Shown: in pieces, positions 20,037-63,338 of the stretch | Layout: each line of letters begins with the position of its first letter | Position numbering within the stretch: the stretch's first letter is position 1 | Source: Saccharopolyspora thermophila | Lineage (GTDB): Bacteria > Actinomycetota > Actinomycetes > Mycobacteriales > Pseudonocardiaceae | Assembly (NCBI RefSeq): GCF_014646075.1 | Contig: NZ_BMMT01000009.1 | Coordinates: 1-64,000, forward strand | Direction of reading: 5' to 3' | Length of the DNA stretch: 64,000 bases | Program-made: the position numbers and the translations under genes | Notes under the pieces: model-generated | Told to the model about the DNA's origin: nothing | What the model saw: only the letters and a program-made list of their open reading frames with translations | Databases searched by the model: none

Positions 20037-21278
20037 TCATGTCAGCCGCGGGGGTACACCCGCGTTGCGGCTCAGGACCAGCAGGGCGATGTCATCCGAC
20101 GACGGTTCGGCACCGAGCAGCTTGTTCATCACGGTGCTGCAGACCTGGTCGGCGGGGGCGGGCACGACCGTGTCGCACAACTGCTCCAGGCCGACGTCGA
20201 TCGGCCGGTCCCGGCGTTCCACCAGGCCGTCGGTGTAGAAGCAGACCACGCCGTCGGTGGGTATCTGCACGACACTGGTCCGGCGGCTGCGGCGGGTCAC
20301 GCCCAGGCCCACCGGCGGATCAACCGGCACCGGCGCCAACGCGCCGCGGATGCCCGGAGCCACCACAACCGGCGCGAGGTGCCCGGCCAGCGACAGGTGC
20401 AGCCGCGACGACCCCGGGTCGTAGATCGAGTACGCCACCGTGGCCATCGCGTTCGGCTCGAAGTGGGTCACCTTGCGGTCGAGCTTGTGCAGGACCTGGC
20501 CGGGCTGGTCGGTTTCCAGCACGTAGGCGCGAAGCGCGCTGCGCAGCCGCCCCATCACCACGGCGGCGGCCAGGCCGTGCCCGACCACGTCGCCGATCAC
20601 GATGCCGATCTGGCCGGACGGCAACCGGAACACGTCATACCAGTCGCCGCCGATGCCGCGGTCGGCGCCGGAGACGTAGCGGGCGTCGAGCGTGACACCG
20701 GGAATGTCGGGCAGCCGGGTCGGCAGCAGGCTGCGCTGCAGCGCGTTGGTGGCGGCACGCTCGGTGCGGGAGGTGCTGGCCTGGGTGGCCAGCGCGATGC
20801 GGTCCGCGACCAGCTGCAGCAGGTGCGTGTCGGCCTCGCTGAACTGCCGCGTGACGAACGCGCCGATGTTCAGCACGCCGACCACCTCGCCACCGGCCAG
20901 CATCGGGGCGCCGATCAGCGACCGAATGCCCCGCTCCCACAGCATCGGCCGGACCAGCGTCGGGTCGTCCGCGCTGTCCAGCAACCCCGGCCGGTGTTCG
21001 CCGGTGACGGCGGCGGCGAAACCCGGGCCCACCGGGATGCGCAGCGCCTGGCGCACCTCGTCCTCGATGCCGACTGCCGCGGTGGCCACCAGCACCTCGC
21101 TGTGCGCGTCGTAGAGCAGCACCTCGGCGAGGTCGACCGCGAGCAGGCCCCGCACCCGGTGGAGCAGTTCGCGCAACAGGTCGTTGAGCTCCAGGTGCGC
21201 CAACGCCGTGTCAGTGACCAGCTCGATCCGCCGCAACCGCGCCGCCGGGTCGTCGGACTGACTGGCCGAGGACCGCAT
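20037..21278 (-). CDS. GAF-domain PP2C (SpoIIE-type) phosphatase
   Basis: About 413 residues: an N-terminal GAF sensor (about 20-170), a connecting helix, and a SpoIIE-type PP2C domain. The phosphatase shows the metal-binding motifs GGDWYDVF, GDVVGHGLAAA, FYTDGLVE and SSDDIALLVL. Such enzymes dephosphorylate STAS-domain antagonists to free an anti-sigma kinase. The STAS and kinase genes lie just beyond on the other strand, giving a complete partner switch. Starts at 21278 and 21290 are both possible; neither has a strong ribosome site. Confidence 0.9.
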   Translation of the reverse strand: MRSSASQSDDPAARLRRIELVTDTALAHLELNDLLRELLHRVRGLLAVDLAEVLLYDAHSEVLVATAAVGIEDEVRQALRIPVGPGFAAAVTGEHRPGLLDSADDPTLVRPMLWERGIRSLIGAPMLAGGEVVGVLNIGAFVTRQFSEADTHLLQLVADRIALATQASTSRTERAATNALQRSLLPTRLPDIPGVTLDARYVSGADRGIGGDWYDVFRLPSGQIGIVIGDVVGHGLAAAVVMGRLRSALRAYVLETDQPGQVLHKLDRKVTHFEPNAMATVAYSIYDPGSSRLHLSLAGHLAPVVVAPGIRGALAPVPVDPPVGLGVTRRSRRTSVVQIPTDGVVCFYTDGLVERRDRPIDVGLEQLCDTVVPAPADQVCSTVMNKLLGAEPSSDDIALLVLSRNAGVPPRLT

Positions 21279-21571
21279 GAGCCACAGCATAGCCCGGTCG
21301 CACGCCTCCCGGCCCGACGTCAGCGCCCTCTGCCCAGCGTGCCGCCGCCCGGCCCGCTTGCACAGCACGCATCCCGCGGGGCCCGGGCCGTGCCCACCCT
21401 GTGCCGGCCCACCGGCGACGACTGCGCCCAACGCCGCGGTGGGGACCTGCACAAGTCAGGGACCGAGCCGGGCGGTCTCCGAGGTTGCGCAGGGTGACCA
21501 CGTACGAGCCCGGGGAAGCTCCCCGAGCAGCGGTTTTGCCAACGCCAGGCCCGGCGACCACCATGGTGGGC

Positions 21572-21940
21572 ATGGCAACGTCGACCGGATCCAGCGACCC
21601 GGCGGCTCCGCTGAGCGTCACGACCGAGCGGTCCGACCGGGTTATGCTCGTCGAGATCGCCGGTGAGCTCGAGCTGCTCAACGCGCCGCGCGTGGAGGAA
21701 GTGCTCAAGGCGGCACTGGAGGAATCCCCGGGGGTGGTGGTCGTCGACATCACCGGGGTGACGTTCCTGTCCTCGGCGGGGCTGGCGGTGCTGGTGCGCG
21801 CGCGTCACCGAGCCGGGCCCGACACCGGGTTCCGGGTGGTGGCCAGCGGTTCGGCCACGCTGCGCCCGATCCAGCTCACCGGTCTGGACCAGGAGCTGGA
21901 GGTTTACCCCTCGCGTGAGAAGGCAATGGCGGGGACCTGA
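21572..21940 (+). CDS. STAS-domain anti-sigma factor antagonist
   Basis: 122 residues. A single STAS domain with the strand VVVVDITGVTFLSSAGLAVLV contains the serine pair that RsbW-type kinases phosphorylate. The protein should bind the kinase encoded next when unphosphorylated. ATG 21572 or 21563 are possible starts. It is divergent from the phosphatase gene and probably co-transcribed with the following gene. Confidence 0.9.
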   Translation: MATSTGSSDPAAPLSVTTERSDRVMLVEIAGELELLNAPRVEEVLKAALEESPGVVVVDITGVTFLSSAGLAVLVRARHRAGPDTGFRVVASGSATLRPIQLTGLDQELEVYPSREKAMAGT

Positions 21941-21997: not shown

Positions 21998-22441
21998 ATG
22001 GCAGTCGACGAGTCGAACGCGGGGCCTACCGCGGGCGACGGGCGCGGGGTGGATGCCCAGGTACACCACCGGAGGGCCCCCGTCAGACCGGGCGACCTGA
22101 CCGCGCTTCGAGACGAGCTGGCCGACTGGGGCCGCCGCGCCGGCCTGACCGACGAGGTGGTGGCGGCGTTGGCCCTGGCCTGCTACGAGGCGATGGCCAA
22201 CGTGGTGGAGCACGCCTACGTCGACGCCGGTGCGATAGAGGTGCGCGCGGAGCGGCGGAATGATCGGGTGCGGGTGACGGTCGCCGACCACGGACGGTGG
22301 CTGCCGCCGGACAGACGGGACGCCGCGGTGTCGCGCGGCCGGGGTATCCCGCTGATCCACCAGCTCGCCGACGAGGCGGTGATCATCCCCGGGGAGACCG
22401 GCACCGTGGTGGAGATGACCTGGCAGGCGCCGCGCAACTGA
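21998..22441 (+). CDS. RsbW-type anti-sigma factor kinase
   Basis: 147 residues with a GHKL/HATPase_c fold. The N box is EAMANVVEHAY, the G1 box VADHGRW and the second glycine box RGRGIPLIHQLAD. It should bind ATP, phosphorylate the STAS partner and sequester a sigma factor. The N-terminal 30 residues are disordered. The cognate sigma factor is not in the window. Confidence 0.9.
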   Translation: MAVDESNAGPTAGDGRGVDAQVHHRRAPVRPGDLTALRDELADWGRRAGLTDEVVAALALACYEAMANVVEHAYVDAGAIEVRAERRNDRVRVTVADHGRWLPPDRRDAAVSRGRGIPLIHQLADEAVIIPGETGTVVEMTWQAPRN

Positions 22442-23785: not shown

Positions 23786-25069
23786 TCAGCGTTCGTCGAG
23801 GTCAAACGGCAGCAGTTCCGTGCAGCGGCGGTACTTCTCGGTCAGCTCCTCCTCGCTGCGGGCGCCCAGGTAGCAGGCGGCGAGCTCGTAGCTGTAGGTG
23901 TCCTGGGCGGGCAGCTTGGACAGGCGGCTGCCCTGCGTCGCCGCGATGTCGACGATCACGTCGGGCATCTGCTCACGCAGTCGCCGGATCTCCTGCTCAC
24001 CGGGGCTGCGGCGGACCACCGCGTCCGTGACGAAGGTGCGGATGTACCACTTGGCGGCCACGGTGAACTCGCCCTGCCCGCGGGGCATCTCCGGTCGCTC
24101 GCCGAGCGCCAGCTGCACCATGCACTGGTGGTTGGGCACGCCGTCGACGAGAGCGAACAGCGGCGCGTGGGACTGGGACAGGCGCGGGTTGATCTCCAGG
24201 ATGGAGAGCCTGTCGTGGTCGGCGTCCCAGAAGAACTCGATGTTGAAGGTGCCCGGATCCAGGCCGATCTGACGCATCACCCGCGTCGAGATGTCGACGA
24301 TGCGGTCCTGGACCTCGACCGGTAGCGTCGACGGGTACTGGTAGCGCAGGAAGCTCGGGGTGTCGGGGTAGCACAGCGAGTCGACGATGCCGTAGACGTG
24401 CGCCTCACCCGCGAACCCGTAGCCCTCGGCGGTGACCTGGTGGCCACCGACCTCCTCCTCGACCAGGCACGCCCGGCCACCGGCCTCGGCGATCTCCGGC
24501 GGCAGCTCCAGCATGCCCAGCAGAAAGTCGAAGTCGTCGCCGACGCGGCCGATACCCTCCCGCATCTCGGCCAGCGCGCGGTCCAGCTCGGCCTGGTCGG
24601 CGACCTTGAACGCCAGTACCGAGGAGTAGGACTTGACCGGCTTGACCCACAGCGGGAAGTCCAGGCCCGACGGCGGGTGCGGGTCGGCGTCCAGGTCGAT
24701 CAGGCCGAACGCCGGGTGGGCGTCGGTGACCGTGCGCTGCTCGAGACGGCTCCAGTACTTGTGCTCGCACCTGACCACCGATTCCAGGCTCGGTCCGGGC
24801 AGCCCGAAGCGGGTGCACAGGATCGGCACCATCGAGGTGACCGGGAAGTCCCAGTAACCGGTGAGCGCGTCCACGTGGCCGGGGAACGACTCCAGGCGCT
24901 GGGCGGCCTCCTCGAGCAGGTCGGGCAGCGGCACCTCCACCTCCATGATCCGTTTCTTGGTCAGCAGCGGGTGGAAGCGGTAGGAGCGCGAGTGCGGCAG
25001 GTCCTGCAGGAGCTCACGGTTGCGCTCGTCGAGCCCCAGGATGAAGACGTTGCGCACTCGCTCGGTCAC
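23786..25069 (-). CDS. ATP-grasp ligase paired with a Pup-like protein
   Basis: 427 residues with an ATP-grasp fold of the carbamoyl-phosphate-synthase type. FPLWVKPVKSYSS (138-150) has the nucleotide-binding lysine; CLVEEEVGG (201-209) is the hinge; FNIEFF (275-280) and ILEINPRLSQSHAPL (290-304) supply metal ligands E278, E292 and N294. Such enzymes form acyl phosphates and couple carboxylates to amines or thiols. GTG 25069 lies 14 bp after the pup-like stop, so the genes form one transcript. Inference: it may act on the C-terminal glutamate of that protein, or use it as a carrier. The substrate is otherwise unknown. Confidence 0.85.
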   Translation of the reverse strand: MTERVRNVFILGLDERNRELLQDLPHSRSYRFHPLLTKKRIMEVEVPLPDLLEEAAQRLESFPGHVDALTGYWDFPVTSMVPILCTRFGLPGPSLESVVRCEHKYWSRLEQRTVTDAHPAFGLIDLDADPHPPSGLDFPLWVKPVKSYSSVLAFKVADQAELDRALAEMREGIGRVGDDFDFLLGMLELPPEIAEAGGRACLVEEEVGGHQVTAEGYGFAGEAHVYGIVDSLCYPDTPSFLRYQYPSTLPVEVQDRIVDISTRVMRQIGLDPGTFNIEFFWDADHDRLSILEINPRLSQSHAPLFALVDGVPNHQCMVQLALGERPEMPRGQGEFTVAAKWYIRTFVTDAVVRRSPGEQEIRRLREQMPDVIVDIAATQGSRLSKLPAQDTYSYELAACYLGARSEEELTEKYRRCTELLPFDLDER

Positions 25070-25083
25070 GGCCGCCGTCCCGT

Positions 25084-25275
25084 CTACTCGCCGCCCTTCT
25101 GGATGTAGGAGCGGACGAAGTCCTCGGCGTTCTCCTCCAGAATGTCGTCGATCTCGTCCAGGGTGGCCTCGGTGTCGTCGGTGAGCTTGTCCCGCCGCTG
25201 CTGTCCGGTCGGGGTCGGCTCGGTCGCGTCATCGTCGTCGTCTCGCGGGCGCGGGCGGTTCTTCTCCTGGCGCAT
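25084..25275 (-). CDS. Pup-like protein (prokaryotic ubiquitin-like), GGE C-terminus
   Basis: 63 residues from ATG 25275 behind AGAGGTGG. The acidic DDDDD run (12-16), QQRRDKL (25-31), the helix EIDDILEENAEDFVRSYIQ (41-59) and the end QKGGE match Pup, the tag joined to lysines for proteasomal degradation. The native end is Glu, so deamidation by Dop would not be needed. Lysines at 5, 30 and 60 remain. The N-terminal third (NRPRPRD) differs from the Gly-rich start of known Pups. No prcBA, dop, mpa or pafA gene is near; the partner is an ATP-grasp gene. I infer a second, specialised Pup, but it could be the only copy in the genome. Confidence 0.88.
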   Translation of the reverse strand: MRQEKNRPRPRDDDDDATEPTPTGQQRRDKLTDDTEATLDEIDDILEENAEDFVRSYIQKGGE

Positions 25276-25488
25276 GGGCCACCTCTCTGTCGGATCCGGT
25301 TCGTCACCGGTTCGTCCATGGCACCCTGTCGCGTACCCAGCCGGCGATCGGGAAAACCGCGCGGCGGCCCGGATTTCCCCGCCGTTTCGGGACCAGTCGC
25401 GGGCCGCGCCGGCGCAACCCCGCTGTGAGGCGGGCACGCGGGCTTCGCTCGGGTGACGGGGTGGGGGCTTGCCCGGCTTCGCGGGGGG

Positions 25489-26391
25489 TCAGCCGACGTA
25501 GCGGCGGGCCACGGAGTGGCGTTGGGGTTCCTCCAGCAGGCGCAGGCCCCGCTCCACCTGCGGCGGGACCACGCGGCGTTCGCGCAGGACCCAGGGCAGG
25601 CTGCGTAGCGCTTCGGCCAGCGCCGCCGCCGTGTGGCGATCCTTCGGAGCCGCCGCGAGGACCGCCGCGCTGCGGCGCAGGGCGGCCGTCACCGGTCGCC
25701 GCAGCCACGCCGTCCACACGGTGTTGCGGATGCCCAGCTGGCGGCGTCGCCGCGCGTCACGGGACCGCGACGGCGCGTGGTGGATCACCACGTCCTCCCG
25801 CCAGCACAACCACCAGCCCCGCGACACCAGGTCCAGGGCGAGCAGCTCCTCCTCGCCGCCGAGCCACAGCCGCGGGTGGAACCCGCCGACCTGGCGGAAG
25901 GCATCGACCCGGAACATCGTCAGCCCGGCCATGACGCTCAGCAGCGCTGGTCCCGGCAGCCAGTACGGCGCGGGCACCGGCGAGGCGCGCAGCTCCGGGA
26001 TCAGCGGGTCCTCGGCGAGATCGGGTTCGACCAGGCACCGGCCCATGACCGCGCCCACGTCCGGGTGGCGGTCCAGCACGGCGGCGGCGCGCAGCAGCGA
26101 CCCCGGTTGCCAGCGCGTGTCGTCGTCGCAGAAGGCGACGTAGGGCGTCGACGTGTGCTCGACGGCCCAGTTCCGCGCCACCGCGCCGAGGTTCTGCTCG
26201 TGGCGCAGCAGCCGCACGTGCGGGAAGCGCCGCCGGATGGCGTCGGCGGTGCCGTCCGCGGAACCGTTGTCCACCACGATGACCGGGGCGCCGTCGGGCA
26301 GCGCGGTCATGTGCTCCAGCGTCCGCAGGACCTCCGCGCACCTGTTGTGCGTCATCACGACCACGGTCGCGTTCCCTTTTCCGTGCACCAC
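25489..26391 (-). CDS. Family 2 glycosyltransferase
   Basis: 300 residues. GT-A fold: VVVMTHNRCAEVLRTLEHM at the start, VDNGSADGTADAI, and the metal-binding FCDDDTRW motif; GGEEELLALDLVSRGW is the acceptor-side motif. It transfers a sugar from a nucleotide donor; cytosolic or membrane-associated. It closely resembles the GT2 at 28711-29577 in order of motifs, so the two are probably paralogues of one glycan locus. It is divergent from the UXS-like gene. The 213 bp behind it (25276-25488) look empty. Confidence 0.88.
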   Translation of the reverse strand: MVHGKGNATVVVMTHNRCAEVLRTLEHMTALPDGAPVIVVDNGSADGTADAIRRRFPHVRLLRHEQNLGAVARNWAVEHTSTPYVAFCDDDTRWQPGSLLRAAAVLDRHPDVGAVMGRCLVEPDLAEDPLIPELRASPVPAPYWLPGPALLSVMAGLTMFRVDAFRQVGGFHPRLWLGGEEELLALDLVSRGWWLCWREDVVIHHAPSRSRDARRRRQLGIRNTVWTAWLRRPVTAALRRSAAVLAAAPKDRHTAAALAEALRSLPWVLRERRVVPPQVERGLRLLEEPQRHSVARRYVG

Positions 26392-26473
26392 GAACCGGTG
26401 CTACCCGGTGCGGGGCGCGCGCAATCCTGGTTTGCCCGCAGCGGGACCGGGGTAGCGCGGATCCGGGAAGGTG

Positions 26474-27445
26474 ATGCCGGTGCAGTGGGAGTTCCGCCGG
26501 GTGGCGGTCACGGGCGGTGCGGGTTTCCTCGGCTCGCACCTGTGCGAGCAGTTGGTGGCACGCGGAACCTCGGTGCTGTGCCTGGACAACCTCAGCACCG
26601 GGTCGGCGCGCAACCTGGAATCCCTGGCCGAGGAGCCCACTTTCGAGCTGGTCGAGCACGACATCGCGCGGCGCCCGTACACCGCCGGCGGGATCGACCT
26701 GGTCGTCCACCTGGCGTCGCCGGCGTCGCCGGCGGACTACCTGCGGATGCCGGTGGAGACGCTGCGGGTCGGTAGCCGTGGCACCGAGCACGCCCTGGAG
26801 CTGGCCGACCGCAACGGGGCCCGGTTCCTGCTGGTGTCCACCAGCGAGGTCTACGGCGATCCGCTGCGGCACCCGCAGACGGAGGACTACTGGGGCAACG
26901 TCAACCCCGTCGGCCCGCGCGCCGTCTACGACGAGGCCAAGCGCTACGCCGAGGCGCTGACGACCGCCTTCCGGGCCAGCCGCGGCACCGGCACCCGGAT
27001 CGCCCGGGTCTTCAACACCTACGGCCCGCGGATGCGGCCCGCCGACGGCCGGGTGGTGCCCACGTTCATCCGGCAGGCGCTGGCTGGGGAACCGATCACG
27101 GTCAACGGCGACGGCCGCCAGACCCGGTCGCTGTGCTATGTGGACGACACGGTGCGTGGACTGCTGGCCGTGGCGGCCGCGAACCGGCCGCAGCCGGTGA
27201 ACATCGGCCGCCCCGGCGAACTGCCGGTGCGCAAGCTGGCCGAGCTGGTGCGCTCGCTGGTCGGGTCACGCTCGCCGATCGAGCACGTCGCCGCGTCGGC
27301 CGACGACCCGAAACGCCGCTGCCCGGACATCACGGTCGCCACCCGAGAACTGGGGTGGCGACCGCGGGTCGACGTCGTGGCGGGTCTGCGCCACACCATC
27401 GCCTGGTTCACCGCAGAAGCGCGCGCAGCGGGTGCCGCGCGATGA
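26474..27445 (+). CDS. UDP-glucuronate decarboxylase-like epimerase/dehydratase
   Basis: 323 residues, extended SDR. NAD motif TGGAGFLGSH is at the N-terminus, followed by LDNLSTGS. HLASPASPADYLRMPVETL, the STSEVYGDP active-site serine/threonine strand and YDEAKRYAE with catalytic Tyr and Lys match UDP-xylose synthases. It probably turns UDP-glucuronate, made by the dehydrogenase at 41471, into UDP-xylose. Other UDP-sugar epimerases of the same fold cannot be excluded. ATG 26474 follows GGGAAGG; GTG at 26480 is an alternative. Confidence 0.8.
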   Translation: MPVQWEFRRVAVTGGAGFLGSHLCEQLVARGTSVLCLDNLSTGSARNLESLAEEPTFELVEHDIARRPYTAGGIDLVVHLASPASPADYLRMPVETLRVGSRGTEHALELADRNGARFLLVSTSEVYGDPLRHPQTEDYWGNVNPVGPRAVYDEAKRYAEALTTAFRASRGTGTRIARVFNTYGPRMRPADGRVVPTFIRQALAGEPITVNGDGRQTRSLCYVDDTVRGLLAVAAANRPQPVNIGRPGELPVRKLAELVRSLVGSRSPIEHVAASADDPKRRCPDITVATRELGWRPRVDVVAGLRHTIAWFTAEARAAGAAR

Positions 27446-27761
27446 AGCGGCGTCGGCGCAGCGTGCGGGTCAGCGCGTAGGCGATGGCGCAACTGGTGGC
27501 GAACACGAGCGCGATGCTCAGCAACCGCGGTGGTGTCGCGATCTGCCGCACGGCGCGCTCGGCGCGGCTCTGGGTGCGCATCACCGCGTTGCGCGCGGCC
27601 TGCCTGGACCGTTCCGGGATGTCCGCGCGGTGCATGAGTTCGTCCAGCGTCTGGATCAGCTCCTGCTTGGTGACGTCGTGCTCCGCCTGCAGCCCGGCCG
27701 CCCCGGCTTCGAGCTCGGCCGCGCGTTCCTGCCTGATGTCGCGGTGCTGGCCGGTGGTCAT
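27408..27761 (-). CDS. DUF3618-type small membrane protein
   Basis: 117 residues: an N-terminal charged helix with the DUF3618-like KQELIQTLDELMHRAD pattern, an amphipathic middle and one hydrophobic segment (LLSIALVFATSCAIAYAL) before a basic tail. It overlaps the upstream holin-like gene by 4 bp and the end of the convergent epimerase gene by 38 bp. Function unknown; such genes usually travel with phage-holin-superfamily envelope proteins, as here. Confidence 0.75.
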   Translation of the reverse strand: MTTGQHRDIRQERAAELEAGAAGLQAEHDVTKQELIQTLDELMHRADIPERSRQAARNAVMRTQSRAERAVRQIATPPRLLSIALVFATSCAIAYALTRTLRRRRFIARHPLRALLR

Positions 27762-28180
27762 CGTCGGATCGCCTCGCTGAGGTCGTGGTAGTCCTGCCTG
27801 ATCGCCTCCAGCGACGCCTCGGGCATCGCCGGTGCGGAGTGCTTCAACCGCGCGCGGCCCACCAGGGCCGAGATCCCCGCCGCCAGCAGCAGCACGGCGG
27901 CGACGATCAGCGCGGCCAGCCACGCGTCGAGTACGATGTCGAGGGCGATCACGGCCGTGGCAACCAGGGTCCCGCCGCCGAGCAGGCCGAGTACGCCGGC
28001 GGCGCCGAGCATCGCGGCGCCCGCACCGGCCTGCTTGCCCTTGCGCTGCAGCTCCAGCTGCGCCAGGCGCAGCTCGGTGCGGATCAGGCGGGTCAGCTGC
28101 CCGCCCACGTCGCTGATGAGCTGCCCGGTGCTCCGGCGCGACAGGTCCGGTGTGTGCACCGGTTCGGTGTGCGTCGTCAT
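27758..28180 (-). CDS. Holin-superfamily III-like membrane protein
   Basis: 140 residues. An N-terminal amphipathic helix (STGQLISDVGGQLTRLIRTE, then LRLAQLELQRKGKQ) precedes two glycine-rich membrane hairpins, the pattern of the phage_holin_3_6/DUF1469 family found in actinobacterial chromosomes. It is not evidence of a prophage. ATG 28180 is preceded by GAGGAGTGAACG inside the end of the GAF gene. Confidence 0.8.
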   Translation of the reverse strand: MTTHTEPVHTPDLSRRSTGQLISDVGGQLTRLIRTELRLAQLELQRKGKQAGAGAAMLGAAGVLGLLGGGTLVATAVIALDIVLDAWLAALIVAAVLLLAAGISALVGRARLKHSAPAMPEASLEAIRQDYHDLSEAIRR

Positions 28181-28183
28181 CGT

Positions 28184-28714
28184 TCACTCCTCACCACGTC
28201 CGTGGCCGCGACGCCGACTGCACTCCACCTGGTACCCGTTCACCGGCGCCGCCACTCCTGCCAGACCGTCGGCCAGCAGCGCCGCGCAGATGGCCGGGAT
28301 GGCCAGCTGGGCGGTGGTCTCGTCGCGCTCGGTGAAGGCGTGCGAGCGCTGCGCGTAGAGGCTCAGGGTGCCCAGCAGGGCGTCGTTGTGCAGCAGCGGC
28401 ACGACCAGGAAGCTGAAGATGCGCGCCTCGCGGGCGCTGCGGGCGAATCCCGGCCAGCAGAGGCGGACCTGCGTGATGTCGGCGAGCACCGACCGGCCGC
28501 TGCGGGCCGCTTCCACGCACGGCCCGGCGCCGTGCCGGAGCTGCGCGAGGTCGACCCGCCGGGCGCGTTCGTCGGTGTGCAGCGCCAGCGCGCGCGGCCC
28601 GCTGATGCAGGCCATGTCGGCACCGGGCACCGCCGTGATCAGCCGCGCCAGCAGCGCCGGCGTCGAGTTCCGGTAGGTCCGGTCGAGCACGACCACTCCC
28701 GCACCACGCGTCAC
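28184..28714 (-). CDS. GAF-domain protein
   Basis: 176 residues from GTG 28714, overlapping the GT2 stop by 4 bp. One GAF fold: ALLARLITAVPGADMACISG, RHGAGPCVEAARSGRSVLADI, then FSFLVVPLLHNDALLGTLSLYA. The last 30 residues carry no ANTAR or kinase output domain. GAF domains bind small ligands or redox cofactors. It may be a stand-alone sensor for the glycosyltransferase operon; this is inferred from position only. Confidence 0.8.
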   Translation of the reverse strand: MTRGAGVVVLDRTYRNSTPALLARLITAVPGADMACISGPRALALHTDERARRVDLAQLRHGAGPCVEAARSGRSVLADITQVRLCWPGFARSAREARIFSFLVVPLLHNDALLGTLSLYAQRSHAFTERDETTAQLAIPAICAALLADGLAGVAAPVNGYQVECSRRRGHGRGEE

Positions 28715-29577
28715 CAGGGGTGCACTTCCAGCACGTCCATCTCTTTGCGGACTTCGGCGGGCAGTTGGCGGCGGTGCGTCAGCGCGGTCGGCAGCCGCCG
28801 CAGCACCGCCAACGCGGCCCGCCTGCTCGGCGGGTCGACGAGGGCACGCTGCAGCAGCCGGGCCGTCCGCGTGACGGCCGCCGCGGGGGCCTGCCGCATC
28901 CAGGAAATCAGCACGTCGTTGCGCAGTTCCAGCACCCGCCGGCCGTGGTCGTCGCGCGCGGTGGACGGGTGGTGGTGGGCGACGATGTCGTCGACGTAGA
29001 TCAGGTCCCATCCGGCGGCGGCCACATCGCAGGCCAGCAGTTTCTCCTCGGCGGCGAAGAACAGCTCGCGGCTGAAACCGCCGACCGACAGGAACGCGTC
29101 GCGCCGCACGATCGCCGCGCAGGCGGTGAAGCCGAGGATGCGCGGCCCGGGCAGCTGCGCGGGGCTGCGCAGCGGTGACCGCGCCATCAGGTCGTTGACC
29201 GGGTCCCTGCGCTCCTGCTCGCCGACCAGCGTGCGGGCGGCGATCACACCCACGCCCGGGTGCGCGGAGAACACCTCCTCGGCGCGGGCCAGCGAGCCCT
29301 GCCGCCACCACGAGTCGTCGTCGCTGAAGGCGACGTAGGGTGTCGCGGCCCGCTGCACGCCGATGTTGCGCGCGGCGGCACCGAGGTTTCGCGGTGCGCG
29401 CACGAGCGCGACGTCGGGGAACTCCTCGGCGACGGCGTCCGCGGTGGCGTCGCGGGAGTCGTTGTCCACCACGATGATCGGCGGCGTCGGGTCCAGGTCG
29501 CTGAGTTCGCCCAGGGTGCGCAGCAGCTCCGCGCACCGGTCGCGGGTGGCGATCACGACGCTGGTGTTCAGGCGCAT
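28711..29577 (-). CDS. Family 2 glycosyltransferase
   Basis: 288 residues from ATG 29577 behind AGGAG. GT-A motifs: SVVIATRDRCAELLRTLGEL, VDNDSRDATADAV, FSDDDSWW, and AAEEKLLACDVAAAGWD. It overlaps the pyruvyl-transferase-like gene upstream by 10 bp and the GAF gene downstream by 4 bp, so all three form an operon. Donor and acceptor are not readable. Confidence 0.88.
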   Translation of the reverse strand: MRLNTSVVIATRDRCAELLRTLGELSDLDPTPPIIVVDNDSRDATADAVAEEFPDVALVRAPRNLGAAARNIGVQRAATPYVAFSDDDSWWRQGSLARAEEVFSAHPGVGVIAARTLVGEQERRDPVNDLMARSPLRSPAQLPGPRILGFTACAAIVRRDAFLSVGGFSRELFFAAEEKLLACDVAAAGWDLIYVDDIVAHHHPSTARDDHGRRVLELRNDVLISWMRQAPAAAVTRTARLLQRALVDPPSRRAALAVLRRLPTALTHRRQLPAEVRKEMDVLEVHPW

Positions 29578-30455
29578 GGCGACTCCTGGCGAACAACCGC
29601 GACCACCGCGTCGACCAGCGGTGATCCGGCCGTGGTGGCGCGGCGCAGCGCGAGGTCGCGCCCGGCGGGCGAGCAGCACCACGCCCACCAGCGGTCCAGC
29701 GCGGCGGCACTGATCTCGTCGGCGCGCAGCACCGCGGGCCACCGCCACACCGCCGCCTGCGCCGCGACCTTCGCGCCGCCGGCGATGGGGTCCGCGGCCA
29801 GCACCGGTCGACCCCGCGACAGGCCGAAGACCAGGCCGTGCAGCCGGGAGGTGATGACCACGTCGGTGCGGTCCACCAGGGACGTGAACTGATCCACAGT
29901 GGAGCAGCAGCGCCAGTCCCGGGGGTCCAGCCTGGTGTCCAGCGGTAGGGCGGCGCAGTCCACTCCGGTCAACCAGTCCACCAGCACCCGGTGCACCTCC
30001 TCGTGCCGGCGGCGCGTCCCGTACTCCGGTTGCGCGGGGGCGAGCGCGACACCCGCCACCGGCACCCGGCCGGCCGGGGCTGGTGTGGCCAGGTCCAGCG
30101 CCGGGTCAGCCGCGCCGCCGTCCCGGGCGAAGACGTGGTGGAATCCCACGACCGCCGGGTCCTGAGGATCCAGCACGGACACGCCGACGGCCACGCGGTG
30201 GCAGCCGGCGTAGCGCTCGTGCAGCGCCTCCACCTGCCAGCCGCGCGCCGGCCCGCACACGAAGACCAGGTGCGTGTAGTCCGCCGGGCGCGCCCGGTCG
30301 AGATCCTGCCCGGGCACCAGAACAGGGCTCCACGCCAGGTCATTCGGGATACCACGGGCGGACAGCGCCGCCGCGACGTGCCGCATGCTCAGCACGTCGC
30401 CGGCTGTGGCTTCGCCGTGCCGGAAACTCGGCCACCCGGTGATCAGCACGCGCAC
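29568..30455 (-). CDS. Polysaccharide pyruvyl transferase-like protein
   Basis: 295 residues from GTG 30455 behind AGGAG. It starts VRVLITGWPSFRHGEATAGDVLS. The C-terminal signature of the family is TDVVITSRLHGLVFGLSRGRPVLAAD followed by GGAKV. Members add pyruvate ketals to surface sugars; some relatives are only GT-B-like. It leads the minus-strand operon and is divergent from the carbamoyltransferase gene across 244 bp that should hold both promoters. No clear promoter was found there. Confidence 0.75.
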   Translation of the reverse strand: MRVLITGWPSFRHGEATAGDVLSMRHVAAALSARGIPNDLAWSPVLVPGQDLDRARPADYTHLVFVCGPARGWQVEALHERYAGCHRVAVGVSVLDPQDPAVVGFHHVFARDGGAADPALDLATPAPAGRVPVAGVALAPAQPEYGTRRRHEEVHRVLVDWLTGVDCAALPLDTRLDPRDWRCCSTVDQFTSLVDRTDVVITSRLHGLVFGLSRGRPVLAADPIAGGAKVAAQAAVWRWPAVLRADEISAAALDRWWAWCCSPAGRDLALRRATTAGSPLVDAVVAVVRQESPCA

Positions 30456-30699
30456 GATGACTCCTGTCGTCCGAACTCGCCGCACCGGCATACCCGCGCT
30501 GCCGCGCGGAAACTCCCCACTCGCCTGCGCACGGTGAGCGACTGGCCTTCCGGGATCTGGAAAACCGCCGCAGTTGCCGCGATATTTCGGTCTTACGTGT
30601 TTAGGAGTCGCTTCGCAGGGTAGCGATGTAGTCGGGAGCAGTGGTCGCCCGACCGGCCAGCCACACCGGAAGCCGGACACCGCCGGAGGAGTCGTCGCT

Positions 30700-32337
30700 G
30701 TGCGTATCCTGGGGATCAACGCCGTGTTCCACGACCCGGCCGCCGCGCTGGTCGTCGACGGCCGCATCGTGGCCGCGGCCGAGGAGGAGCGCTTCTCGCG
30801 CCGCAAGCACGGGAAACGACCAGTTCCGTTCTCCGCGTGGGAACAGCCGGAGCAGGCCGCGAACTGGTGCCTGCGGCAGGCCGGGATCAGCCCGGCCGAC
30901 CTGGACGCGGTCGCCTACTCCTACGACCCCTCCCTGGTGGACCACGGGTTGCCCGGCCTGGACTCGACGTGGGAAGAGCTGCGCACCACGTTCGCCCGGC
31001 ACGCACCGGGATTCCTCCGCACGGCGCTGCCGGGACTCGACCCGCAGATCGTGCGGTTCGTGCCGCACCACGTCGCGCACGCCGCCTCGGCCGGGCTGGC
31101 CGCGCCGTTCGACGACTGTGCCGTGCTGACCGCGGACGGTCGCGGGGAGAGCATCTCGGCGCTGGCCGGGCAGTACCGCGGTGGACACCTGGAGGTGCTG
31201 GCCACGCAGCTCCTGCCGCACTCGCTGGGCCTGATGTACGAGGAGCTGACCGAGCACCTGGGCTTTCACCGCTCCAGCGACGAGTACAAGGTCATGGCGC
31301 TGGCCTCCTACGCCAAACCCCTGTTCCTGGCGGACTTCGCCGAGCTGGTGCGCAGCACCGGCGACGGGCACTTCGAGGTCGGTGACACCGACTGGTCACG
31401 CTGGGCGCCGCGTCGCGCGCCCGACGGCCGCGTCGAGCCGGAGCACGCCCAGTTGGCCGCCAGTGTGCAGGCCCGCCTCGAGGAGGTGCTGCTCGACCTG
31501 GCGCGGTGGCTGCACCGGCAAACCGGGCAGGAGCGGCTGGCGATGGCCGGGGGCGTGGCGCTGAACTGCGTCGCCAACACCCGCCTGGCCGCAGAAGGAC
31601 CGTTCCGCGAGGTGTGGGTGCAACCGGCCGCCGGTGACGCGGGTACCGCGCTGGGCGCGGCGCTGGAGCTGGCCGCGAAAGAAGGCGAACCGCGCACCAC
31701 GATGACCGGCGCCGACCTCGGCCGGGAATGGTCCGATGTGGACATCGAGGCGCTGCTGCGCACCGCCGCCGTCGAGCACGAGCGACCCGTCGACGTCGCC
31801 GAGGTGGCCGCCGCGGCGCTGGCCCGCGACGAGACGGTCGGCTGGTTCCAGGGGCGCAGCGAGTTCGGCCCGCGCGCGCTGGGCCACCGGTCGCTTCTCG
31901 CACACCCCGGGCACGCGCACAACGTGGAGCGGCTCAACGACATCAAGGGCCGCGAGCAGTTCCGGCCGGTGGCACCGATGGTGCTGGCCGAGCGCGCCGG
32001 CGAGCTGTTCGGCCGCGGCCCGCTGCCGAGCCCCTACATGCTGTTCGTGCACGACGTGGCCGGCGAATGGCAGCCCCGGATACCGGCCGCGGTGCACGTG
32101 GACGGCACCGCGCGGGCGCAGACCGTGGACCGCGAGCGCGAGCCGCTGCTGGCCCGGCTGCTGGACTCCTTCGCCGCGCGCACCGGCCTGCCCGCGGTGG
32201 TCAACACCAGCTTCAACACCGCCGGCCGCCCGATGGTCGACAGCCCCGTCGACGCGCTGGAGTGCTTCGGCGCCTCGGCGATCGACGTGCTGGTGCTCGG
32301 GCCGTTCGTGGTGCGCCGCCGGGGGAGCCGGCCATGA
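30700..32337 (+). CDS. NodU/CmcH-type O-carbamoyltransferase
   Basis: 545 residues. The N-terminal Kae1-like domain starts ILGINAVFHDPAAALVVDG, with AAEEERFSRRKH, the metal-binding HHVAHAASA, and ADGRGE. The C-terminal domain has WFQGRSEFGPRALGHRS and VVNTSFNTAGRPMV. It should move a carbamoyl group from carbamoyl phosphate, through carbamoyl-AMP, to a hydroxyl of a sugar. GTG 30700 follows GGAGGAG. It heads the long plus-strand glycan run and overlaps the next gene by 4 bp. Confidence 0.9.
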   Translation: MRILGINAVFHDPAAALVVDGRIVAAAEEERFSRRKHGKRPVPFSAWEQPEQAANWCLRQAGISPADLDAVAYSYDPSLVDHGLPGLDSTWEELRTTFARHAPGFLRTALPGLDPQIVRFVPHHVAHAASAGLAAPFDDCAVLTADGRGESISALAGQYRGGHLEVLATQLLPHSLGLMYEELTEHLGFHRSSDEYKVMALASYAKPLFLADFAELVRSTGDGHFEVGDTDWSRWAPRRAPDGRVEPEHAQLAASVQARLEEVLLDLARWLHRQTGQERLAMAGGVALNCVANTRLAAEGPFREVWVQPAAGDAGTALGAALELAAKEGEPRTTMTGADLGREWSDVDIEALLRTAAVEHERPVDVAEVAAAALARDETVGWFQGRSEFGPRALGHRSLLAHPGHAHNVERLNDIKGREQFRPVAPMVLAERAGELFGRGPLPSPYMLFVHDVAGEWQPRIPAAVHVDGTARAQTVDREREPLLARLLDSFAARTGLPAVVNTSFNTAGRPMVDSPVDALECFGASAIDVLVLGPFVVRRRGSRP

Positions 32338-33830
32338 CCGCACCGCAGACCCGCTACGCCGTCATCGTCCCCACGACCGGGCGATCGAGCCTGGGCGCGC
32401 TGCTGGAGGCGCTGGATTCGGCGGCCGGACCGGCACCCGCGGAGGTCGTGGTGGTCGACGACCGCCCGCACCCGGCGCCGCCGCTGGCCCTGCCGAAAAC
32501 CTCGCTGCCCGTCCGGCTCGCCCGGTCCGGCGGGCGGGGCCCGGCCGCCGCACGCAACACCGGGTGGCGCGAGGTGGACGCCGACTGGGTGGTGTTCCTC
32601 GACGACGACGTGGTGCCGGGGCCGCGGTGGCGCCGAGACCTGCGGCATGACCTCGACGTCGGGCCCGACGTCGTGGCCTGCCAGGGCCGGATCGCGGTGC
32701 CGCTGCCGGAGGACCGCCGCCCCACCGACCTGGAGCGCGGTGTGGCGGGACTGGCCAACGCCTGGTGGATCACCGCCGACATGGCCTACCGGCGCAGCGC
32801 GCTGGCCGCCTGCGGTGGTTTCGACGAGCGCTTCCGGCGTGCCTTCCGGGAAGACGCCGACCTCGCGCTGCGGGTTCAGGCCGCGGGGTGGCGACTGGTC
32901 ATCGGCAGCCGCACCACCGAACACCCGGTGCGCCCCGCCGGACCGCTGGCCAGCGTGCGGGCGCAGGCCGGTAACGCCGACAACGCCCTCATGCGGCGCA
33001 AGTACGGCAGGAACTGGCGCAAGCGGATCGGTGAAGGGCCGGGGCGCACCCGCCGGCACGCGATCACCACCGCGGCGGGTCTCGCGACGCTGGCCGCCAC
33101 CTGCGCCGGGCGGCACCGGGCCGCGTGGACCTCGGCGGCCGGGTGGGCCGCGCTGACCGCGGAGTTCGCGCTGCGGCGCATCCTGCCCGGCCCGCGGACC
33201 GCGGCCGAGATCGGCCGGATGCTGCTGACCAGCGTGCTGATCCCGCCGGTGGCCTGCTGGCACCGGCTGCGCGGCGAACTCGCGTACCGGCGGCGACCGA
33301 CGCTGCCGGCGGCGGTGCTGTTCGACCGCGACGACACCCTGATCCACGACGTGCCCTACAACGGTGACCCGGCACGCGTGCGCCCGGTGACCGGCGCGCG
33401 CGAGGCCCTGGACCGGTTGCGGGTCAACCGCATCCGGATCGGGGTGGTGAGCAACCAGTCCGGGGTGGCCCGCGGGCTCCTGCGCGAATCCGACGTCGCC
33501 GCCGTCAACGCCGAGGTGGAGCGGCAGCTGGGGCCCGTTGACACCTGGCAGTGCTGCCCGCACGGCGACCGGGACGGCTGCGACTGCCGCAAACCCGCAC
33601 CGGGACTGGTGCAACGCGCGGCGGCGCAGCTGGACGTCCCGGCCAGCCGCTGCGTGGTGATCGGCGACACCGGAGCCGACGTCGAGGCGGCACTCGCGGC
33701 CGGGGCCCGGGCGATCCTGGTGCCCACCGGGCGGACCCGGCCCGCGGAGATCACGCGCGCGGTCTGTGACGCCGAGATCGCCCCGTCGGTGTGGGCCGCC
33801 GTGGAGTTGGTGCTCGGGGGTGGCCGGTGA
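32334..33830 (+). CDS. GT2 glycosyltransferase fused to GmhB-like heptose-bisphosphate phosphatase
   Basis: 498 residues. Residues 1-300 are a GT-A glycosyltransferase with VIVPTTGRSSLGALLEAL, FLDDDVVPG (acidic triad at 90-92) and a hydrophobic region around 245-310 that may touch the membrane. Residues 328-498 are an HAD-IIIA phosphatase of the D-glycero-D-manno-heptose 1,7-bisphosphatase type: FDRDDTLIHD with D331/D333, VSNQSG, the zinc loop CCPHGDRDGCDCRKP, and VIGDTGADV. The phosphatase supplies a step of ADP-heptose synthesis that the separate GmhA and HldE genes need. Such a fusion is unusual. Confidence 0.88.
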   Translation: MTAPQTRYAVIVPTTGRSSLGALLEALDSAAGPAPAEVVVVDDRPHPAPPLALPKTSLPVRLARSGGRGPAAARNTGWREVDADWVVFLDDDVVPGPRWRRDLRHDLDVGPDVVACQGRIAVPLPEDRRPTDLERGVAGLANAWWITADMAYRRSALAACGGFDERFRRAFREDADLALRVQAAGWRLVIGSRTTEHPVRPAGPLASVRAQAGNADNALMRRKYGRNWRKRIGEGPGRTRRHAITTAAGLATLAATCAGRHRAAWTSAAGWAALTAEFALRRILPGPRTAAEIGRMLLTSVLIPPVACWHRLRGELAYRRRPTLPAAVLFDRDDTLIHDVPYNGDPARVRPVTGAREALDRLRVNRIRIGVVSNQSGVARGLLRESDVAAVNAEVERQLGPVDTWQCCPHGDRDGCDCRKPAPGLVQRAAAQLDVPASRCVVIGDTGADVEAALAAGARAILVPTGRTRPAEITRAVCDAEIAPSVWAAVELVLGGGR

Positions 33831-34843
33831 CGGGGCGGGTGCTGGTGGCGCGGCAGGACAATATCGGTGACGTGCTGCTCGCCGGTCCCGCGGTGCGGGC
33901 CGTGGCCGCCCACGCGGAATCCGTGGTGCTGCTCGCCGGGCCGCGCGGCTCGGCCGCCGCGCACCTGCTGCCCGGGGTGGACCGCGTCGTGCAGTGGTGC
34001 GCGCCGTGGATCGACCCCGAGCCGCTCCCGGTTCGCCTCGCCGAGATCACCGGGTTCGTCGACCACATCCGGGCGCTGCGGGTGTCCCGCGCGCTGATCC
34101 TCACCTCCTTCCACCAGTCGCCGCTGCCGCTGGCGCTGCTGCTGCGGATGGCCGGGGTGGGCTGGATCGGGGCGATCAGCGAGGACTACCCGGGCTCCCT
34201 GCTGGACCTGCGCCACCAGGTGGACGGGGACCCCCCGGAGCCGGAGCGCGCGCTGTCGCTGGCCCGCGCGGCGGGTTTCGGCCTGCCACGCGGCGACGAC
34301 GGGCGACTCGCGGTGCGCGGGCCGCTGCCGGACGTCACCGACCTGGTCGGTGGCCCGGGATACGTCGTCGTCCACCCCGCGGCGTCGGTCCCGGCCCGGC
34401 AGTGGCCCGCCTTCCGGTGCAAGGCCGCGGTGCGCGCGCTGGCCCGCAGCGGCCGGCGGGTCGTGGTCACCGGCACCCTGGCCGACCGGGAGCTGACCGC
34501 CCGCATCGCCGGGGACGACGGCCTGGACCTCGCCGGGCGCACCGACCTGCGGCAGCTGGCCGCGGTGCTTGCCGGTGCCGAGGCGGTCGTGGCGCCCAAC
34601 ACCGGACCGGCGCATCTGGCGGCCGCGGTGGGCACCCCCGTGGTGTCGCTGTTCGCGCCCGTGGTGCGTGCCGCCCGCTGGGCCCCGTACGGGGTGCCGG
34701 TCGTGGTGCTGGGTGACCAGCGCGCGCCCTGTCGCGACTCACGGGCCCGGTTCTGCCCGGTCCCCGGCCACCCCTGCCTGAGCCGCGTCACGGCGGACCA
34801 GGTGGTGGCCGCGGTGGGCCGGCTGGAGGAGGTCGTTGCATGA
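33827..34843 (+). CDS. GT9 heptosyltransferase-like protein (first copy)
   Basis: 338 residues from GTG 33827, overlapping by 4 bp. GT9/GT-B architecture: VLVARQDNIGDVLLAGPAVR at the start, VVHPAASVPARQWPAF at the inter-domain region, and the donor-site motif NTGPAHLAAAVGTPVVSLFAP. The family uses ADP-heptose to build inner core in Gram-negative bacteria. Here the donor is probably the ADP-heptose made by this locus. A GRCxxxxC-like Cys pair lies near the C-terminus (CRDSRARFC). Confidence 0.85.
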   Translation: MTGRVLVARQDNIGDVLLAGPAVRAVAAHAESVVLLAGPRGSAAAHLLPGVDRVVQWCAPWIDPEPLPVRLAEITGFVDHIRALRVSRALILTSFHQSPLPLALLLRMAGVGWIGAISEDYPGSLLDLRHQVDGDPPEPERALSLARAAGFGLPRGDDGRLAVRGPLPDVTDLVGGPGYVVVHPAASVPARQWPAFRCKAAVRALARSGRRVVVTGTLADRELTARIAGDDGLDLAGRTDLRQLAAVLAGAEAVVAPNTGPAHLAAAVGTPVVSLFAPVVRAARWAPYGVPVVVLGDQRAPCRDSRARFCPVPGHPCLSRVTADQVVAAVGRLEEVVA

Positions 34844-61313: not shown

Positions 61314-63338
61314 TCACACGCAGTCGCGCGGGATCCGCTCCTGCCAGTTCTGCGAGCGCACGCGGTTCTCGCCCTCGTAGGCGTCCAGCTGTGCGTGCAG
61401 CAGGAACTCGGTGGGCGTGGACCTCAGCACGGTGCGGGTGCGGGTGCGGACCGCCCACGTGCCGCGCCGGAAACCCATCTCCCAGTCGATCTCGCCGCAC
61501 ACCGAGTTGAAGTCGTCGTTGACCCAGCTGTAGCGCTCCCGCGCGCGCCGCGTCATCTCGAGGTCGATGTCGTCGATCCGCACCACGCCGAGATCCTTCA
61601 CCACGTTTAGCTCCGAGCGGTACTCGACCAGGTCCCGCGAGACCGTCCAGCGGTGCTCGGCGGGCCGGACCTGGGTGCTGGCCACCGGTGGCGTGCCCTC
61701 GGGCTCCGGGAACGGCGACTCGGGTAGCTCGTCGGGCTCCCGGATGGAGCGCACCGGCAGGATCAGCTCGCTGTCCTCCGGGTACACGGTCAGCCGCACC
61801 GGTTCGGGCGGCGGCCAGGCCAGCGGCCAGTAGGACGTCGACAGCGCCAGCCGGATCCGGTGCCTGGCCGGGAACGCCTGCGCGACGCCGTTGAGCTGCA
61901 CCCGCACCCGGTAGGTGGTGCCCGGCTCCAGCAGGGTCGGCTCGGCGTGCCCGTCGCGGTGGGTCAGGTTGAGCAGCCCGTAGCTGACGCGGGTGGCGCG
62001 GCCATCCGGCGCGACGTCGGACAACCGCGCGGCCAACATCGCCACCGGCCGGTCCACGGACAGGCTGATCTCGGCCACCGGACCGCCCAGGATCTCGCAG
62101 CGCTCAGCCAGCGGTTCGGTGTCGAACACCATCGCCCCGCCGTCCTCCTCACGCTGGTCGTAGGGCAGGTCGGGGGGCGCGTTGTAGGAGCACCACTTGC
62201 CGGCGAACTGACCCAGCGACAGCGGCGACTCCACCTCCAGCGGCCGTGAGGCGGGCTCGGTGCCGGGGCGGCCGATCAGGTTGTGGCCCAGCGGGCAGTG
62301 GATCCGCTCCATGTGTGGTGAGGGCCAGCCCGGTTCGCCGACCCAGCGACCGGGCCGCTCGTCGTAGGCCGTCGACGGCGGCATGCTCTCCTGCATCCAG
62401 ATGCACAGCATGGGTGCGTCCATGACGCCGTTGTCGACGTCCTTGAGCCAGTGGTCCCACCAGCGCACCAGTTCCTGCAGGAACCCGATCGCCGGGCCGG
62501 GCTGACCCAGGTGCGGGTACTTGTGCGACCACGGGCCGATCAGGCCCCGCCGCGGCACCGTGAGGCGCTCCATGAGCCGGAACACCGCGTTCGAGTACCC
62601 GTCGGCCCATCCGCTGGCGGCCAGCACCGGACAGGCGATGCTGCTGTAGTCCTCGCACACCGAGCCGTGCTCCCAGTAGGCGTCCCGGCGCTGGTGGTGC
62701 AACCACTTCGCCAACCACAGGCCGCTGTCGCGCATTCGCTGGTGCCACTGCTCACGCCAGCTCTCCCCGACCAGCGCCGGATCCGGCGGACAGGCGTTGT
62801 AGGCGAACATCGTCGAGGCCCACGACAGGTTGTCGCTGAGCAGGCACCCGCCCATGTAGTGCACGTCGTCGGCGTAGCGGTCGTCGCTGCAGCTCAGCGC
62901 GGCGATCGCGGCGAGGCTCGGCGGGCGGCGGGCGGCGACCTGCAGGGCGTTGAACCCGCCCCAGGAGATGCCCATCATGCCGGTGCGCCCGGTGCACCAG
63001 GGCTGCGCGGCCAGCCAGGCCAACACCTCCTCGGCGTCCCGCAGCTCCTGCTCCAGGTACTCGTCGGCGAGGACGCCCTCCGAGTCACCGCTGCCGCGCA
63101 GGTCCACGCGGGCGCAGGCGTAGCCGTGGCCGGCCAGGTAGGGGTGGTGGATCGAGTCGCGCCGCGCGGTGAGGTCGCGCTTGCGGTACGGGATGAACTC
63201 CAGGATCGCCGGCACCGGTTCGGTGTCGGAGGACACCGAGCGCCAGATGCGCGCCGCCAGCCGGGTGCCGTCGCCGAGCGGTATCCAGACGTGCTCCTCT
63301 TCCTTGATCTCGTTCGGCAGCGCGGTCACGATCCGCAT
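61314..63338 (-). CDS. CocE/NonD-type serine hydrolase (X-Pro dipeptidyl-peptidase family)
   Basis: 674 residues. The alpha/beta-hydrolase domain has the nucleophile S125 in MMGISWGGFNAL, an Asp in the VLAASGWADGYSNA region and a His in GPWSHKYPH. The C-terminal jelly-roll domain (about 330-550) and an extra C-terminal 100 residues follow. Such enzymes cleave acyl esters or Xaa-Pro peptides; no signal peptide is seen, so it is probably cytosolic. ATG 63338 follows GGAGTCATTCCG. Confidence 0.87.
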   Translation of the reverse strand: MRIVTALPNEIKEEEHVWIPLGDGTRLAARIWRSVSSDTEPVPAILEFIPYRKRDLTARRDSIHHPYLAGHGYACARVDLRGSGDSEGVLADEYLEQELRDAEEVLAWLAAQPWCTGRTGMMGISWGGFNALQVAARRPPSLAAIAALSCSDDRYADDVHYMGGCLLSDNLSWASTMFAYNACPPDPALVGESWREQWHQRMRDSGLWLAKWLHHQRRDAYWEHGSVCEDYSSIACPVLAASGWADGYSNAVFRLMERLTVPRRGLIGPWSHKYPHLGQPGPAIGFLQELVRWWDHWLKDVDNGVMDAPMLCIWMQESMPPSTAYDERPGRWVGEPGWPSPHMERIHCPLGHNLIGRPGTEPASRPLEVESPLSLGQFAGKWCSYNAPPDLPYDQREEDGGAMVFDTEPLAERCEILGGPVAEISLSVDRPVAMLAARLSDVAPDGRATRVSYGLLNLTHRDGHAEPTLLEPGTTYRVRVQLNGVAQAFPARHRIRLALSTSYWPLAWPPPEPVRLTVYPEDSELILPVRSIREPDELPESPFPEPEGTPPVASTQVRPAEHRWTVSRDLVEYRSELNVVKDLGVVRIDDIDLEMTRRARERYSWVNDDFNSVCGEIDWEMGFRRGTWAVRTRTRTVLRSTPTEFLLHAQLDAYEGENRVRSQNWQERIPRDCV

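Follow-up and report, generated by a model that had tools for sequence, protein, structure and literature searches.

The question raised by this locus is why a pup gene should lie apart from the proteasome genes and directly upstream of an ATP-grasp ligase gene. The window analysed here is the whole stretch of 64,000 nucleotides from contig NZ_BMMT01000009.1 of Saccharopolyspora thermophila, and its features are collected in Table 1. The initial annotation had described a 63-residue Pup with a QKGGE end, followed after 14 bp on the same strand by a complete ATP-grasp gene, and both the coordinates and the domain scores agree with this description. The Pup matches the Pfam Pup family (PF05639) over nearly its full length with 77.9 bits (cut-off 27, E 1.1e-21) and the Pup C-terminal domain of NCBIfam (TIGR03687) with 60 bits (cut-off 41.45). 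A phmmer search with it retrieved the Pup chains of PDB entries 3m9d, 7px9 and 3m91 along with the PafA-Pup fusion 4bjr. The ATP-grasp protein scores 37.4 bits against PF13535 (cut-off 27); its Pfam matches above the cut-off are to general ATP-grasp families, and none of the 25 NCBIfam matches listed for it attains its cut-off. With these scores, a chance open reading frame is ruled out. The two genes are separated by positions 25070-25083 on the minus strand, and this short gap suggests that they probably share a common transcript.

Table 1. Features of the window around the accessory pup gene
Feature	Position	Strand	Remarks
GAF-SpoIIE phosphatase	20037..21290	(-)	
STAS-domain protein, anti-anti-sigma-like	21563..21940	(+)	
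HATPase_c_2 protein, anti-sigma-kinase-like	21998..22441	(+)	
ATP-grasp ligase, L-amino-acid-ligase-like	23786..25069	(-)	427 aa, GTG start
Accessory Pup	25084..25275	(-)	63 aa, QKGGE end, PupE type
Candidate SigB/SigF-type stress promoter GTTTTC-N13-GGGTAC	25333..25357	(-)	starts 82 bp upstream of the pup initiation codon; 0 mismatches to GTTT-N14-17-GGGTAY
S15/PepX-type hydrolase	61314..63338	(-)	77% identical to the ATP-grasp neighbour in G003; SigB-like site at -112

In size and ending the window Pup lies within the range of the family (60-70 aa, with an acidic helix at the C-terminus and a GGE or GGQ end). The near full-length Pfam match and the di-Gly plus Glu end are common to it and the canonical actinobacterial Pup (3m9d, 7px9 and 3m91), and it is identical to the 3m91 chain at 31 of the 43 C-terminal residues. 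Because so many of these residues are kept, the existing PafA and Mpa could plausibly use it. Unlike canonical Pup, it is encoded outside the dop-prcBA-pafA locus, has its own stress-type promoter and falls in a separate accessory group. The canonical pup of the same genome (5.36 Mb in 59 contigs) was found at G000:C13:113076-113270, with the end QKGGQ (PupQ), in the order PF03136 gene (Dop position), pup, two proteasome subunit genes, PF03136 gene (PafA position). Since this PupQ sits in a dop-pup-prcBA-pafA locus elsewhere, the window copy is an accessory Pup. Hence the proposal of a real second Pup is borne out, the pup at the prcBA locus being what the initial annotation had suggested looking for, and the reading in which the window holds the sole pup of the genome is rejected. 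The genome has both PafA and Dop, in the two PF03136 genes flanking the canonical pup and the proteasome subunit genes, and no third gene of this PafA/Dop family was found across its 59 contigs. Passages of PMC2588565 give the adjoining of pup to a PafA-family gene as a genomic habit. The window pup departs from it, both PF03136 genes being on contig C13 and the window on C9, and this concerns the habit of the locus, not the Pup protein itself.

Extra Pups are mainly confined to Saccharopolyspora among the sampled genomes, and they come without extra ligases. The pup survey covered 120 genomes including that of the window, of which 22 belong to the genus and 98 do not. Two to six pup matches were found in 18 of the 22 genus genomes, the accessory matches ranging from 0 to 5 per genome. 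Outside the genus, 95 genomes had one pup, two had none and one (G033) had two. A draw of 396 genomes across the phylum contained pup in 160 and two pups in three (the window genome, G264 and G306), and duplication as an ordinary trait of the phylum is rejected on these 3 of 160. In every one of the 22 genus genomes the number of PF03136 genes is exactly two, which would allow the usual ligase to serve both Pups. A second PafA/Dop serving the second Pup is rejected, as none was found in the window genome or in the 22 genus genomes. The genus and G033 together gave 30 accessory matches, 28 intact and two degenerate: a partial match in G011 (L138 near 830) and a frameshifted copy in G021 (L153 near 9658; C1:3766688). 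These two were excluded from the promoter, tree and ending counts (28 of 30) and included in the count of distances within 20 kb.

The initial annotation had suggested a tree of Pup proteins, and in both trees built the 28 accessory Pups form one group. They occupy one side of a branch with support 98/87 in a tree of 70 rows (28 accessory, 23 canonical and 19 out-group sequences, one of 20 out-group loci having yielded no pup by the pattern used). They are again united with support 96/90 after the addition of family members (77 rows, 45 columns), from 19 of 20 family/order loci together with 7 out-group rows. Class A (15 members, the window Pup among them) and class B (13) are defined by the 70-row tree, where class B is a subclade with support 92/91; this subclade is absent from the 77-row tree. 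The finer forks of the Pup trees are weak because the proteins are short. Class A comprises 5 GGE, 7 GGQ and 3 NGQ ends, and class B 9 GGE and 4 GGQ. Since 11 of the 28 accessory Pups thus end in GGQ and 3 in NGQ, readiness for ligation is not a general property of the group. Among the 23 canonical copies, 22 end in GGQ and one in GGE. The latter belongs to G009, where the ends are swapped, the canonical Pup having GGE and the accessory one GGQ (L137:9908-10099 and L167:936-1130). An altered di-glycine motif, with KNGQ ends, is found in three accessory Pups, two of G007 and one of G017 (L134:6690-6878, L135:16194-16385 and L144:9850-10038).

Most accessory Pups carry stress elements close to a published consensus upstream, of the SigB type in class A and as OsdR/DevR boxes in class B. 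The SigB-type search form was GTTT, 14-17 bases, GGGTAY, with a spacing slightly wider than the printed one, and its last position (Y) is our own assumption. The window pup has this form with 0 mismatches, and the genome encodes a SigB/F/G-type sigma factor scoring above the curated cut-off. SigB-type promoters are printed with a GTTT-type -35 and a GGGTA-type -10 in passages of PMC8346170; compared with the promoters of the Streptomyces coelicolor SigB homologues given there, the putative window promoter fits in its GTTT-type -35, GGGTAC-type -10 and 13-base spacer. With at most one mismatch, the form was found upstream of 8/15 class A pups, 1/13 of class B, 1/23 canonical pups and 0/47 comparison genes drawn from three proteasome loci, against about 1% in shuffles. 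When two mismatches were allowed, the counts became 14/15, 1/13, 7/23 and 2/47, with shuffles at 10-15%. For the second regulator, the OsdR consensus 16-mer AGGGCCGATCGGCCCT was used as printed in PMC5069765. With at most 4 mismatches it occurred in 11/13 class B Pups and in 0/15 of class A, 0/23 canonical pups and 0/47 proteasome-locus genes (shuffles 2-4%). In 10 of these 11 the position of the box is between -92 and -129, and in G033 it is -28. Earlier looser SigB and DosR patterns had been written after inspecting the sequences (28 accessory, 23 canonical and 553 neighbour genes). The strict SigB pattern gave 6/28, 0/23 and 30/553 respectively, the relaxed one 12/28, 2/23 and 50/553, and the DosR pattern with at most one mismatch 12/28, 0/23 and 38/553. 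One copy, G021a (L149:9629-9823), fits neither class, being class A by the tree, near universal-stress-protein genes, and devoid of a close SigB or OsdR site.

Genes were called with our own codon-usage script rather than a published caller. Near the window pup are a GAF-SpoIIE phosphatase, for which we assume a role in partner switching, a STAS protein, presumably anti-anti-sigma-like in role, and a HATPase_c_2 protein that we take to act like an anti-sigma kinase; ChaB and hemerythrin genes are also present in the window. Strict SigB-like sites were found upstream of 25/257 neighbour genes at class A loci, 0/168 at class B loci and 0/47 at proteasome loci. The looser DosR-type pattern was found at 18/168 class B, 9/257 class A and 7/47 proteasome-locus neighbours; because the proteasome loci also have it, OsdR control of the class B neighbours is unsupported by this pattern. 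Genes of a universal-stress-protein cluster, identified by Pfam, lie within about 11 kb of 9/13 class B pups and 1/15 of class A (G021a). For example, in L139, the sole class B locus annotated in detail, pup has near it the genes of a universal stress protein, a nitroreductase and a pyruvate phosphate dikinase, all three of them types that appear in the OsdR list of PMC5069765, and also the gene of a LuxR-type response regulator. Class B Pups thus resemble the OsdR/DevR dormancy regulon through their AGGGCCGATCGGCCCT-like boxes and the L139 gene types, the window copy being class A, and the word pup does not occur in PMC5069765.

The ATP-grasp gene has a family of its own. K104, K143, E204, E278, E292 and N294 are invariant in a family alignment of 46 rows, and we take these to be the residues expected for ATP-grasp catalysis. 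The protein thereby shows the ATP-grasp domain (PF13535) and the conserved residues of an L-amino acid ligase. A profile of the 46 members has its best PDB match in 3vot (the L-amino acid ligase BL00235; E 9.5e-11, profile positions 82-317), and the family is distant from that enzyme and has an S15-type hydrolase as its usual neighbour. Of 123 relatives in public genomes the loci of the best 80 were taken; the hydrolase gene is present in 71 of them, and in 65 of the 80 it lies on the same strand within 300 bp. With the pattern used, no acidic ORF with a GGE or GGQ end was found near the ATP-grasp gene in these best 80 of 123 loci, with flanks of up to 6 kb. In the window, the S15 homologue lies 36 kb from the ATP-grasp gene and has its own SigB-like site. 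Likewise, 9 of 103 ATP-grasp genes elsewhere have a strict SigB-like site of their own, against 0.4% in shuffles. At E 1e-40 the ATP-grasp was found in 37 of the 120 surveyed genomes, 14 of the 22 in the genus and 23 outside, 22 of the latter with one Pup.

Several further observations touch on this family. The window genome has a second ATP-grasp paralogue, 53% identical (L157:9297-10562; G000:C16:54296-55564), with a SigB-like site at -79; an S15 relative is absent from the 20 kb stretch around it, and pup is absent from its contig. In Salinisphaera orenii, a cyanophycin-synthetase-like gene (L062:2034-4664) precedes the ATP-grasp gene by about 1.3 kb, and in 9 fetched loci the ATP-grasp is present more than once. 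The cyanophycin-synthetase-like neighbour and the repeated ATP-grasp genes would fit small-peptide chemistry.

The sequence itself establishes the presence of paralogues, of one PafA/Dop pair and of promoter-like elements, together with the gene neighbourhoods and how the ATP-grasp is distributed. We infer the expression of the accessory pups, the use of their products by PafA for ligation, and what the ATP-grasp makes. It is rather likely that stress-inducible accessory Pups feed the ordinary PafA system and that the ATP-grasp is another gene of a stress island. In Saccharopolyspora, pup would have been duplicated away from the proteasome locus, and the extra copies would have come under two regulons, a SigB-type general-stress sigma factor for class A, including the window copy, and an OsdR/DevR-type dormancy regulator for class B. 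Upon stress, the extra copies would add to the supply of Pup on which the single PafA/Dop pair of the proteasome locus draws, and those ending in GGE, the window Pup included, would be ready for ligation without deamidation by Dop. The ATP-grasp, as a separate member of the island, may together with the S15-type hydrolase make and break a small peptide or amide. The simplest reading of the locus is that Pup and ATP-grasp are in one island as both belong to the general-stress regulon.

Other explanations have to be weighed against this one. A spare pup that has no function and persists by chance in an island rich in genes would agree with the varying number of accessory matches among the genus genomes and with the degenerate copies in G011 and G021. 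However, the 28 intact copies stand in one group, the regulatory elements follow class, and dN was lower than dS in 10 of the 11 pairs compared, which makes neutral retention very improbable; the exception, G002/G014 with dN > dS, has a one-codon length difference and was trimmed rather than aligned. The same low dN is among the points for a Pup isoform code, in which the accessory Pups would pass PafA and their conjugates would differ in fate under stress (slower depupylation, non-degradative use or a different affinity for Mpa). Canonical Pups are near-invariant across the last 38 residues, the accessory Pups have diverged as a group with the helix and tail kept, and the three NGQ ends point the same way. 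However, the divergence may merely reflect relaxed constraint, and no changed position was tied in this analysis to a contact with PafA, Dop or Mpa; such a code is considered unlikely.

The initial annotation had favoured a second Pup with its own ligase or loading enzyme. In such a dedicated pair, the C-terminal Glu of Pup would receive an amino acid, a peptide or a small amine from the ATP-grasp, and Pup would serve as a carrier or as a modifier in extended or activated form. The same-strand gap of 14 bp, the L-amino-acid-ligase-like nature of the ATP-grasp and the free GGE end of the window Pup are in its favour. So is G003, where pup, ATP-grasp and S15 are near-contiguous and look like one operon, but the adjoining Pup there ends in GGQ. 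The annotation had proposed to look for a conserved adjacency. Of the 14 genus genomes bearing the ATP-grasp, 2 have the genes directly adjacent, namely the window genome and G003. Hence, of the two outcomes that the annotation had counted against itself, a sole pup in the genome is false and a non-conserved ATP-grasp neighbour is largely true. These 14 genomes hold 22 accessory Pups, 7 of which, including a degenerate one, are no more than 20 kb away from an ATP-grasp gene. There is a weak co-occurrence in the genus, as class A Pups are present in 11/14 genomes with the ATP-grasp versus 2/8 without (p 0.026); for any accessory Pup the counts are 12/14 versus 5/8 (p 0.31). The co-occurrence with class A would be explained by common membership of the island, and Pup and the ATP-grasp may still be functionally linked. 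As the model for a carrier reading of the window Pup we took a LysW-type amino-group carrier with its ATP-grasp. The conserved adjacency of carrier and ATP-grasp that marks such a system is limited to the 2 of 14 genus genomes and was seen in none of the best 80 of 123 loci with flanks of up to 6 kb.

The distribution of the ATP-grasp also argues against the dedicated pair. Pup was searched for in 16 ATP-grasp host genomes, 11 non-actinobacterial and 5 actinobacterial; a match was present in 5/5 of the latter and absent from 11/11 of the former (Halomonas, Salinisphaera and Marinobacter among them, and two metagenome-assembled). Conversely, five genus genomes with accessory Pups (G005, G006, G008, G013 and G018) have no close relative of the ATP-grasp, their matches in the profile search reaching 42.5 to 52.3 bits, compared with 597 bits in G001 and 621 bits in G011. 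The initial scan of G005, G006, G008 and G018 had scored 14 of 18-23 candidates, and the later profile search scored all. Given this distribution, and with S15 as the usual neighbour, a dedicated ligase is rejected as the leading interpretation; the enzyme is probably no dedicated ligase of Pup, and the chance that the pair is dedicated is judged to be very small. It is just as improbable that, where the genes are contiguous, the stress Pup is modified by the ATP-grasp at its free C-terminal Glu and becomes a carrier or an extended modifier. If true, a Pup-modifying ATP-grasp would be a second Pup chemistry beside ligation by PafA.

To our knowledge, how bacteria raise pupylation under stress is an open question. 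In Saccharopolyspora, extra and separately evolving Pup genes bear the marks of two stress regulons, and the ligase and depupylase are held at one pair. The genus would therefore be a natural setting for asking whether the supply of Pup, rather than PafA, limits tagging under stress. It is also suited to asking whether a GGE end makes Dop dispensable, and whether the isoforms of Pup differ in meaning.

Passages of PMC3511204 describe organisms whose two pup genes encode a PupQ and a PupE, as well as the duplication of parts of the pupylation system in Saccharopolyspora erythraea. As in the window genome, one of the two pup genes encodes a GGQ end and the other a GGE end, and the passages are silent on the stress regulons, classes and copy numbers of pups described here for Saccharopolyspora. 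A stress review (PMC8223512) contains no occurrence of Saccharopolyspora, paralog, second pup, two pup or DosR. Searches of the open-licence literature found no printed statement that SigB or OsdR controls accessory Pups, and none on Pup together with SigB and a stress regulon. A search on extra pup genes gave unrelated titles among the matches listed, and one on ATP-grasp with osmolyte or dipeptide gave nothing useful. Two pup genes per genome were already known, and on the stress regulons of the accessory Pups nothing was found in the open-licence literature searched.

Beyond the pup gene, positions 25489-41423 of the window are occupied by an extended series of genes of the glycosyltransferase, epimerase, carbamoyltransferase and sugar type, several with SigB-like sites. 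Such sites recur at genes of the same cluster in G002, G007, G014 and G019.
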